From NCBI RefSeq assembly GCF_900176435.1, contig NZ_FWYE01000002.1:62001-126000 (forward strand): 64,000 nt of DNA, given 5' to 3'. The DNA comes from Picrophilus oshimae DSM 9789. GTDB lineage: Archaea; Thermoplasmatota; Thermoplasmata; Thermoplasmatales; Thermoplasmataceae. Both the position numbers and the translations under genes were made by a program. The notes under the pieces were generated by a model. It saw nothing but the letters and a program-made list of their open reading frames with translations, was not told the DNA's origin and did no database searches. Positions 1 through 4,091 of this stretch are shown here, one piece after another. Each line of letters opens with the position of its first letter. Position 1 is the stretch's first letter.

Positions 1-1503
1 AATGTAAGGTTTGGTGACATTGTACCGGCAGACTGTGCAATAATCTCAGGAAACGTTGAAACAGACCAGTCAGCACTCACAGGCGAATCATTATCTGTTT
101 CAAAGGGTGTTTCAGATCAGCTCTTTTCAGGCTCTGTTATAAAGCGCGGTGAGGCAACAGCCGTGGTCATGGCAACCGGGGATAAAACATACTTTGGCAA
201 AACGGCAATGCTTGTAAGTGAAGCAGGTTCCAGATCACATATAGAATCGCTTATCTTTAATATTGTGAAATATCTTATAATACTTGATGTCTCGCTTGTT
301 ATTATAACAACAATTTATTCAATTTTAATTAATGTTCCATTTAATGATATTATCCCGTTTTCACTTGTGCTTCTTATAACTTCAATACCCGTGGCACTGC
401 CCGCAACCTTTACGATAGCAATGGCCATTGGTGCAATGGACATGGCAAAAAAGGGAGCCATTGTAACAAGGTTAAATGCAATAGAGGATGCCGCATCAAT
501 GGATATACTTTGCTCAGATAAAACAGGAACGATAACAGAGAATGTTCTTACAGTAAGGGATCCGTATCCTGTTGGATGCAGCATCAACGAACTCATGGAA
601 CTGGCCATGTATGCATCAGAGGAGAAATCAGAGGATCCAATAGATATTGCAATAATAAATTTTGCAAGGAATATTAAAATAAATATTGATTATAATAATG
701 TAAAAAATTTTATTCCCTTTGATCCGGCAACAAAAAGAACCGAGGCTGTTGTTTTAAAAAATGGTAAAACAACAAGAATTTTAAAGGGTGCACCGCAGGT
801 TATAGCAGGCCTTTGCGGTTTTAATTATTCAGGGATATCATCAAAAATTGATGAGTTTGCCCGCTTTGGCTACCGTGTAATAGCTGTGGCCACCATTGAT
901 GAAAAGCCTGCTTTTAAAGGCTTAATACCAATGTATGATCCTCCAAGAAAGGATTCCGCTGAGTTAATAAAGGAGCTTGGAGATCTTGGAATTTCAGTAA
1001 AAATGGTTACAGGTGATAATAAGGAGATAGCCGCAAAGATAGCAGGCGAGGTTGGTATCTCTGGAATGGCATGCAATGTCCATGAGAATTTTGATGTAAA
1101 TAAATGCTCTGTTTTTTCTGAGGTTTTCCCTGAGGACAAGTTTAAAATAGTAATGGAGCTGCAAAAAGATGGTCATGTCACCGGAATGACTGGAGACGGC
1201 GTTAATGATGCACCTGCACTCAAGCAGGCCGAGGTTGGCATAGCCGTTAGCAATGCGACTGATGTTGCAAAGGCCTCTGCAAGCATAGTTCTTACACATC
1301 AGGGTATAGTTGATATTGTTGAATCCGTAAAGGATGGGAGAAGAATATACCAGAGAATGTTAACATATACATTAAATAAAATTATAAAGACAATACAGGT
1401 TGTTCTGTTTTTAACAACAGCATTTTTTGCGGTAAAATTCTTTGTTACAACGCCGTTTGACATAATTTTACTGCTCTTTGCAAATGATTTTGTGACCATG
1501 TAA
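1..1503 (+). CDS. P-type H+-ATPase (plasma-membrane type), 5'-truncated by window edge and 3'-interrupted by an in-frame stop
   Basis: Reading frame is open from base 1, so the true start lies left of the window. Visible in order: actuator-domain LTGES (codons 26-30), a membrane hairpin with the PVALP motif, the phosphorylation site CSDKTGT (Asp near codon 173), KGAP in the nucleotide domain, the hinge TGDGVNDAP, then membrane helices M5-M6. Family knowledge: type III (plant/fungal Pma-like, also archaeal) proton pumps exporting H+ with ATP. The frame stops at TAA 1501-1503, five codons after the Asp of FAND, which aligns with the proton-carrying Asp of M6 in plant pumps. The same frame continues without shift into the remaining helices, so the sense codon lost was probably Ser (one-base change TCA to TAA). 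As drawn, the product would lack M7-M10 and is probably non-functional. The family call is very secure; functionality is doubtful. Confidence 0.93.
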   Translation, partial: NVRFGDIVPADCAIISGNVETDQSALTGESLSVSKGVSDQLFSGSVIKRGEATAVVMATGDKTYFGKTAMLVSEAGSRSHIESLIFNIVKYLIILDVSLVIITTIYSILINVPFNDIIPFSLVLLITSIPVALPATFTIAMAIGAMDMAKKGAIVTRLNAIEDAASMDILCSDKTGTITENVLTVRDPYPVGCSINELMELAMYASEEKSEDPIDIAIINFARNIKINIDYNNVKNFIPFDPATKRTEAVVLKNGKTTRILKGAPQVIAGLCGFNYSGISSKIDEFARFGYRVIAVATIDEKPAFKGLIPMYDPPRKDSAELIKELGDLGISVKMVTGDNKEIAAKIAGEVGISGMACNVHENFDVNKCSVFSEVFPEDKFKIVMELQKDGHVTGMTGDGVNDAPALKQAEVGIAVSNATDVAKASASIVLTHQGIVDIVESVKDGRRIYQRMLTYTLNKIIKTIQVVLFLTTAFFAVKFFVTTPFDIILLLFANDFVTM

Positions 1504-1932: not shown

Positions 1933-1990
1933 ATTGTTTTTATAATAATTTTCCTGAAACGTTTAAATAAAAATATTGTATAAATATAAA

Positions 1991-2176
1991 ATGAACTGCG
2001 ATGATATAGGCTTTATCAGAATATACGACAGGAACGGTCATTACGTTGATATAAGCCATGAGGACAGTGTTAATATATGCAGTGAGGCTGTAGAAACAGG
2101 AAACGATATAGCAGACATAATAAGAAAAAGATATATGAGAAACCTAAAATTAATAAAATTTATGGATATGGATTAA
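1991..2176 (+). CDS. small acidic protein of unknown function, 61 aa
   Basis: Starts at ATG 1991, which sits 22-29 bases after a TTTAAATA box (1962-1969), the spacing expected for a leaderless archaeal transcript. A TTG at 1976 would add five residues but lies inside the promoter spacing. The product begins MNCDDIGFIRIYDRNG, has an Asp/Glu-rich middle and ends in a basic stretch (IIRKRYMRNLKLIK). It has no membrane segment or recognisable domain. It follows the broken ATPase by about 60 bases on the same strand. I do not recognise a family. Promoter position and codon use make it a likely real gene. Confidence 0.6.
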   Translation: MNCDDIGFIRIYDRNGHYVDISHEDSVNICSEAVETGNDIADIIRKRYMRNLKLIKFMDMD

Positions 2177-2651: not shown

Positions 2652-2687
2652 TATAAATATTAGATTTAACTTACACATCAGGAGGTG
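2652..2687 (+). promoter_or_regulatory. TATA box (2652-2660) and strong Shine-Dalgarno (2680-2687) of the poly-Asp ORF
   Basis: TATAAATAT at 2652-2660 would place the transcription start near 2680-2685 or slightly earlier. AGGAGGTG (2680-2687) is an extended match to the 16S rRNA 3' end, five bases before ATG 2693. Most genes in this window show no such site, so its strength in front of a 23-codon ORF is notable and argues that the ORF is translated. Confidence 0.6.
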
Positions 2688-2692
2688 TTAAT

Positions 2693-2764
2693 ATGGTAAA
2701 ATTCGTCAGGTTTTATGATGACGATGATGACGATTACGATGACGACGATGACGATGACTTCTAA
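2693..2764 (+). CDS. poly-aspartate microprotein, 23 aa
   Basis: Reads MVKFVRFY, six Asp, Tyr, seven Asp, Phe, stop: 13 of 23 residues are Asp, with a short basic and aromatic head. It is preceded by a TATA box and one of the best Shine-Dalgarno sites in the window. The flavoprotein gene starts 28 bases downstream and could be co-transcribed or use its own TTTAAATAAT box (2766-2775). No known family. Possible roles (inference only): metal or polyamine binding, a pH-titratable acidic peptide in a cell with acidic cytoplasm, a nucleic-acid mimic, or a regulatory leader peptide. The alternating GAT/GAC codons could also be a simple-repeat expansion, but the in-frame stop, start and Shine-Dalgarno favour a gene. 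Confidence 0.55.
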   Translation: MVKFVRFYDDDDDDYDDDDDDDF

Positions 2765-2792
2765 TTTAAATAATAGTTTATAATTTATTTTT

Positions 2793-4091
2793 ATGAAGAT
2801 ACTTGTTATAGGTGGTGGCGCTGCCGGCATGTCCGCGGCATCAAAGGCAAGGCGCATGGACAGGGACGCTGATATAACTGTTTTTGAGGATGGCCCATTT
2901 GTGTCATACGCGGAATGCGGGATGCCATACTATCTTGCCGGATATTTTAATGATTACAATGACCTTTTACATTATAAAATCGAGGAATTTACAGAGAAAA
3001 GAGGTATAAATGTAATAACAAATGAGAAAATTAAAGACGTTGATGTAAAAAATAGGATTGTTTATTCAAAAAACAGATCATATGAATACGATAAGCTTGT
3101 TATAGCCAGCGGTGCATCCCCAAGAATTCCAGATGAGTTTAAAGATTATGCGTTATCATTAAGAAGCATGGAGGATGCAATAAGATTAAATGATATGCTT
3201 AAAAGATCCAGGGATATAACAATAGTTGGTGCAGGTGTTCTTGGCACCGAGCTTTACAGCCTACTAAAAAAAAGGCATCATGTTAGACTAATATCAAAGC
3301 ATGATCACGTTCTGCCCTACTTTGATGATGATATGTCAGATATATTAAAAAACATATGCGATGATAATATAGAATACAATTCATTACCCATTGAAATATC
3401 ATACAACGGCAGATACAAAATAAAGACCTCTCTTGGTTCACATGAGTCCGACCTTGTAATATTTGCAACAGGCATAGAGCCGAACACATCATTTATAAAA
3501 GATGGAATAAAAAAGGATGGTTATGGCAGAATAATCGTTGATGATTATTTAATGGCCTGTGATGATGTATATGCTGCCGGGGATGCTGTTACAACAAAGA
3601 ACATCGTCACTGGTTTAAATGATTACTTTCCACTGGCCCAGGTTGCAAACAAGATGGGGAGGATCATAGGCGTAAATCTATTTGGCAACAGGATAAAATT
3701 TCCCGGGTCCCTTGGGACAACGATAATAAACTTAAATGATTACCAGGTTGGCTACACAGGAATAAATGAAAGAACGGCAAGAAAATTAAACATAAAATAT
3801 GACAGGATACTTATAAAGGGTGAGAGCCGTTCAAAGTATCTTCATGGCAGTGATGTTTACACAAAGATCATTTACAGTGAGGATGGCAGGCTGATTGGTG
3901 CACAGGTAATATCAAGGGAGAATGGTGCGTGGAGATTAAATGTGCTTGCAACTGCAATATATTCAAAAATGCACATAGATGATTTGTTCTTTAATGACCT
4001 GGGCTACGAGCCTGAATACGGTCCTGTATGGGATCCAATAGTTATTGCCGGCAGTCTTGGCCTAGATAAACTTCAGGGCTATGGTAAATGA
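2793..4091 (+). CDS. FAD/NAD(P)-dependent disulfide oxidoreductase, CoA-disulfide reductase / NADH oxidase type
   Basis: 432 aa. The N-terminal FAD site GGGAAGMSAASKARR is followed by the redox Cys in YAECGMPYY (about residue 43), the single-cysteine signature of CoA-disulfide reductases and NADH oxidases. A second Rossmann motif, VGAGVLGTELY, near residue 148 binds NAD(P)H, and CDDVYAAGDAV marks the second FAD contact. The C-terminal dimerisation domain is complete, and no rhodanese domain is fused. Family role: NAD(P)H-dependent reduction of CoA disulfide or of oxygen/sulfur species, giving thiol and redox balance in an aerobic thermoacidophile. ATG 2793 lies 18-27 bases after TTTAAATAAT. 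Its 3' end overlaps the convergent glycosyltransferase by 30 bases. Substrate cannot be fixed from sequence. Confidence 0.9.
   Translation: MKILVIGGGAAGMSAASKARRMDRDADITVFEDGPFVSYAECGMPYYLAGYFNDYNDLLHYKIEEFTEKRGINVITNEKIKDVDVKNRIVYSKNRSYEYDKLVIASGASPRIPDEFKDYALSLRSMEDAIRLNDMLKRSRDITIVGAGVLGTELYSLLKKRHHVRLISKHDHVLPYFDDDMSDILKNICDDNIEYNSLPIEISYNGRYKIKTSLGSHESDLVIFATGIEPNTSFIKDGIKKDGYGRIIVDDYLMACDDVYAAGDAVTTKNIVTGLNDYFPLAQVANKMGRIIGVNLFGNRIKFPGSLGTTIINLNDYQVGYTGINERTARKLNIKYDRILIKGESRSKYLHGSDVYTKIIYSEDGRLIGAQVISRENGAWRLNVLATAIYSKMHIDDLFFNDLGYEPEYGPVWDPIVIAGSLGLDKLQGYGK

Follow-up and report, generated by a model that had tools for sequence, protein, structure and literature searches.

A 23-codon open reading frame in which 13 of the residues are aspartate raises the question of whether such a repetitive sequence is a genuine gene and, if it is, what its product could do. 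The preliminary description of this locus proposed a microprotein gene that carries a promoter and a Shine-Dalgarno sequence (SD) of its own and might also work as a translated leader for the flavoprotein gene downstream. This study was concerned with the 64,000-nucleotide stretch of DNA that carries the frame, referred to here as the window, and with homologous loci in the family of thermoacidophilic archaea to which the host belongs. Our main reading, to which we give a probability of about 0.55, is that the frame is an autonomous microprotein gene whose peptide would act in trans by binding a basic partner.

The open reading frame and its expression signals

The 23-codon frame with its 13 Asp was recovered with exact coordinates, as was the flavoprotein start 28 nt past its stop codon (Table 1), both as first described. 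The gene has no existing annotation. Its acidic run starts near residue 9 and is encoded by a mixture of GAT and GAC codons in a window with a GC content of 36.4%. Six consecutive Asp codons (GAY x6) occur nowhere else on either strand of the 1,534,155-base genome, all three matches lying inside this frame. The peptide had no match in Pfam or NCBIfam at E <= 0.001, which is weak evidence because short, low-complexity queries match poorly.

Table 1. Features of the microprotein locus, in coordinates of the window
Feature	Position	Strand	Basis or remark
Purine-rich BRE-like element GAGAAATG	just upstream of the TATA box at 2652	+	sequence
TATA box of the microprotein gene, TATAAATA	2652..2659	+	sequence; 41 nt before the start codon
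Predicted 5' leader of ~13 nt, transcription start expected near 2680	2680..2692	+	inferred from promoter spacing
Shine-Dalgarno sequence GGAGGTG	2681..2687	+	first base 12 nt from the ATG
Poly-aspartate microprotein ORF MVKFVRFYDDDDDDYDDDDDDDF	2693..2764 (stop 2762-2764 included)	+	23 codons, 13 Asp
TATA box of the flavoprotein gene, TTTAAATA	2765..2772	+	28 nt before the flavoprotein ATG
T5 tract, possible archaeal oligo-T terminator of the microprotein transcript	2788..2792	+	weak in the window
Flavoprotein, CoA-disulfide-reductase-like pyridine nucleotide-disulfide oxidoreductase	2793..4091	+	Pfam PF07992, E 1.8e-44

The expression signals bear out the claims of an own TATA box and of an SD among the best in the window. 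The TATA box scored 12.0 bits, above the window's 99.9th percentile of 8.2, with a matrix learned from promoters of the host's family, a score that is partly circular because the microprotein's own promoter is one of the 56 on which the matrix was built. The 7-mer GGAGGTG occurs four times in the window and stands complete at SD distance in none of the 58 non-overlapping window ORFs of at least 100 aa. The leader is predicted to be little more than the SD. At the 3' end, the oligo-T tract after the microprotein is longer (T6-T9) in many relatives. Tracts of T6 or more fell within 32 nt past the stop at 19 of the 56 microprotein loci, against 6.6 expected from mononucleotide shuffles, and the excess of T5 tracts within 50 nt was small (32 observed, 24.7 expected from dinucleotide shuffles).

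Two other features of the window were observed. A P-type ATPase (H+-ATPase-like) gene at 1-1932 contains an in-frame TAA at 1501-1503 (+), at FANDFVTM*IATDNVRYSKKPEKW, past which the frame stays open to 1932; this codon may be a nonsense mutation, a site of readthrough or an assembly error. An ORF of 66 aa at 1976-2176 (+), or 64 aa if counted from the ATG at 1982, is conserved in the sister genome G001 and matched nothing in Pfam or NCBIfam.

Conservation and gene neighbourhood

Microprotein homologues were present, by our tally, in 19 of 19 genera (g1 to g19) and in 63 of 77 genomes of the host's family, and many of the remaining genomes are incomplete. The sister genome (L032/G001) has an acidic microprotein with the same SD upstream of the flavoprotein orthologue, as does every sampled genome of g19, g10 and g6 upstream of the flavoprotein. 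Profile searches gave members with the motif KRRDYDDDDD(Y/S)DDDDDF in g5, g15, g17 and g8 and also in g7, g9, g11, g12 and g4. Those of g2, g3, g13, g14 and g18 were added by reading upstream of the Lhr helicase across the order, and those of g16 by profile A5. A class-wide search with a DNA pattern returned mostly chance matches outside the host's family and was replaced by the protein profiles. The profile searches detected no member in the order's other families or in the class and phylum samples, which is to be read as "not detected" because the profiles are short and of low complexity and A5 also missed known members, for example that of G000. No acidic ORF was seen ahead of lhr on inspection of three other families in the order, and the literature searched contained no described poly-Asp archaeal microprotein.

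The start codon, SD and frame, whose conservation in relatives had been suggested as a check on the gene, are kept across the 19 genera, together with the TATA box. Over the 56 distinct homologues, the distance to the start codon ranges from 39 to 47 nt for the best TATA match and from 9 to 14 nt for the SD; an SD was required for entry into this set, and the upstream-of-helicase reading, made without that filter, also shows one. Nearly all homologues have an SD of the GGNGGT or GAGGT type, which is weak or missing in two g16 genomes (G016 and G032), and they start with ATG, TTG or GTG. Because the TATA-to-start distance is 28 nt in leaderless neighbours, leaders of about 11-19 nt are predicted for the homologues.

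The peptide is 20-26 aa long in the homologues and has two parts, a short head of hydrophobic and basic residues (M-V-x-F-V/I-(K-R-R)-D/Y) and an acidic stretch of 10-15 residues that are nearly all Asp. Acidic residues exceed 40% of each member kept, D/(D+E) is 0.88 across the homologues, and the C-terminal residue is Phe in 26 of the 56 distinct members and E, D, N, S or L in the other 30. Fifteen independent within-genus pairs gave 94.9 synonymous differences over 153.6 sites and 59.1 nonsynonymous differences over 827.4 sites, a pN/pS of 0.116 by simple count, uncorrected for multiple hits or transition bias. The microprotein peptide is therefore under purifying selection. With its own promoter, strong SD and family-wide conservation, the frame fits the earlier claim of a genuine microprotein gene, and from these sequence data it is very probably a real, independently expressed gene selected for its peptide.

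The adjoining flavoprotein scored 373 bits against TIGR03385, under that family's cut-off of 578.8. Its TATA box begins at the base right after the microprotein stop, which accounts for the 28-nt gap. When 15-60 nt were scanned in the linked loci, the flavoprotein's best TATA match lay 28-30 nt from the ATG in 18 of 20, and no SD was present before the flavoprotein. With a TATA box at -28 and without an SD, the flavoprotein looks leaderless and is probably transcribed on its own despite the adjoining microprotein. Some species separate the two genes by 28-36 nt, others by 100 to ~750 nt, and elsewhere the neighbour is an Lhr helicase. Because of the independent promoters, the variable spacing and the changed neighbours, a leader role for the flavoprotein is unlikely; this part of the preliminary description was abandoned, and the microprotein probably does not regulate the adjoining flavoprotein gene.

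The arrangement in most genera places the microprotein directly before an Lhr-type helicase, often in the order Lhr-Toprim-RNase Z. The members from the profile searches that bear this motif, those of g5 excepted, have the helicase immediately downstream, usually followed by the Toprim protein and RNase Z; for g4 the adjacency to Lhr was taken from match coordinates. The gene order is microprotein-flavoprotein-lhr in g6 and microprotein-438-aa ORF-flavoprotein-lhr in g5. The flavoprotein is the neighbour in g1, g10 and g19, which we would guess to be Picrophilus-, Ferroplasma- and Acidiplasma-like, and in g16 different genomes have different genes downstream, among them moaC-like or exonuclease-III-like ones. 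The distance from the microprotein stop to the lhr start is 4-10 nt in g13, so read-through or coupling to lhr is likely there. In the helicase tree g1, g10 and g19 form one clade (100/100) that is sister to g18, which retains the linkage to lhr. Thus, the microprotein has outlived its separation from lhr.

The row of Lhr helicase, Toprim protein (PRK04017-like) and RNase Z was itself found at L174:5209-9378, with equivalents in g7, g9, g11, g12, g15 and g17, and its conservation suggests an RNA-processing operon in the host's family. One genome, G025, has two similar microprotein-lhr loci on separate contigs (L173 on C3 and L180 on C6), perhaps from a strain mixture in a metagenome bin.

Proposed mechanism and alternative explanations

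In the proposed mechanism, the gene's own strong TATA promoter would give a transcript with a leader of ~13 nt that holds little beyond the near-perfect SD, and translation would yield a ~23-residue peptide with a hydrophobic/basic head and 10-15 acidic residues. The product is probably an autonomous polyanionic microprotein at high expression. The peptide itself, rather than the RNA or the act of translation, would be the target of selection and would work in trans. That its polyanionic chain binds a basic partner is a tentative step, by itself less likely than not, drawn from composition and neighbourhood only. The nearby genes for nucleic-acid enzymes and the polyanionic make-up would point, as a first guess, to a nucleic-acid-handling protein or RNP as the partner, such as the Lhr helicase, Toprim and RNase Z set, at which the peptide could serve as an RNA-like mimic or a charge chaperone. 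Asp may be preferred to Glu for keeping its charge down to a lower pH, and judged by side-chain pKa values the preference is compatible with charge retention in an acidic cytoplasm. In its fullest form, the proposal would make free-standing polyaspartate a dedicated cell component throughout this family of Thermoplasmataceae-like archaea. As an RNA-like polyanion it would titrate basic RNA/DNA-processing machinery, or act as its chaperone, in the acidic cytoplasm, with Asp rather than Glu holding the charge at low pH; we consider this form somewhat unlikely. We know of no earlier description of an RNA-like polyaspartate effector of this kind.

The frame might in principle have arisen by chance or as low-complexity sequence, or lie incidentally within a small RNA: it is short and repetitive, and slippage can create GAY repeats. 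Against this stand the low pN/pS, the 19 genera, the conserved TATA/SD geometry, the mixed GAT and GAC codons and the lack of a second such run in the genome, which leave such an origin a negligible probability. A chance low-complexity ORF was rejected on the unique Asp run and the pN/pS, and the same observations, with the conservation in 19 genera, uphold the earlier judgement that the frame is unlikely by accident. A peptide that binds metals, polyamines or protons, its Asp chain chelating Mg, Ca, Mn or Fe or buffering near its pKa, would suit the composition, the strong Asp bias and the apparent signals of high expression. Metal binding and buffering had been suggested in the preliminary description, as had a pH-responsive role. 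However, the conserved head (V-x-F, KRR and an aromatic residue before the run) and the narrow length exceed what a buffer needs, a 23-mer would require a very high copy number for cytoplasmic buffering, and the steady linkage to one RNA/DNA-processing locus would be left unexplained, so we regard this function as somewhat improbable.

The frame might also be an acidic uORF, or leader peptide, whose nascent poly-Asp destabilises the ribosome, by the intrinsic ribosome destabilisation known from MgtL and MgtQ, and so regulates the downstream gene, originally lhr. By the criteria set for E. coli and Salmonella (PMC8092293), the long acidic run from residue 9 ranks as extremely destabilising, the ORF lies directly upstream of lhr in most genera, with the very short gap in g13, and the lhr genes adjoining the microprotein mostly have a low TATA score at -28 while those of g1 and g19, which have relocated, score high. 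However, the lhr genes of g17 and g2 carry plausible TATA-like elements by eye, the downstream gene varies by genus and, where it is the flavoprotein, has its own promoter, the microprotein persists away from lhr with gaps of up to ~750 nt, and many species have oligo-T tracts past the stop. Regulation of this kind is quite unlikely. Still less probable, and in our view very unlikely, is a role as a short acidic docking tail for the Lhr helicase or some other enzyme, in the style of the SSB C-terminal tip. An SF2 helicase does adjoin, Phe is terminal in nearly half of the distinct members (26 of 56), and Thermoplasmatales aLhr2 proteins are reported to have extended C-terminal regions without a Pfam domain (PMC8301817), but the terminal residue is another one in 30 of 56 and the lhr linkage is lost in g1, g10, g19 and g16. 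An SSB-tip-like identity was rejected on the unconserved terminal Phe. Among functions we rank a basic nucleic-acid-handling partner first, metal or proton binding second and a ribosome-destabilising leader third.

The gene is probably important for the cells, since every genus of the host's family keeps it with a near-constant promoter and SD design. It offers a test case for a near-homopolymeric acidic peptide as a selected product, for the tolerance of archaeal ribosomes to long acidic nascent chains, and for protein charge management in organisms with an acidic cytoplasm.

Comparison with known systems

The Lhr-type SF2 helicase, Toprim and RNase Z row adjoins the microprotein in most genera, and this proximity is conserved; it is a neighbour only, and stands apart from the microprotein in g1, g10, g19 and g16. 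The SSB C-terminal tip consists of acidic residues ending in Phe, and the microprotein resembles it in having an Asp-rich run that often ends in Phe and lies near helicase genes. However, the microprotein is a free-standing chain of 23 aa without an oligonucleotide-binding domain, and fewer than half of its members have the Phe end. With DNA-mimic and other nucleic-acid-mimic acidic proteins the microprotein shares a high density of negative charge, which might pass for a phosphate backbone. The known DNA mimics are folded and several times longer, whereas the microprotein is far shorter and matches no Pfam or NCBIfam family. MgtL and MgtQ of enterobacteria are likewise very short ORFs with N-terminal acidic residues upstream of another gene, and the microprotein has the same short frame and N-terminal acidic run. 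A location in the 5' leader of the regulated gene was not found for the flavoprotein (own TATA box in 18 of 20 loci, no SD), nor was the downstream gene constant in relatives, being the flavoprotein, the Lhr helicase or others by genus. The microprotein differs from MgtL and MgtQ in its 13 Asp in two nearly adjoining runs, its own promoter and SD, its inconstant downstream gene, the independently promoted flavoprotein and the conservation that extends along its whole peptide.
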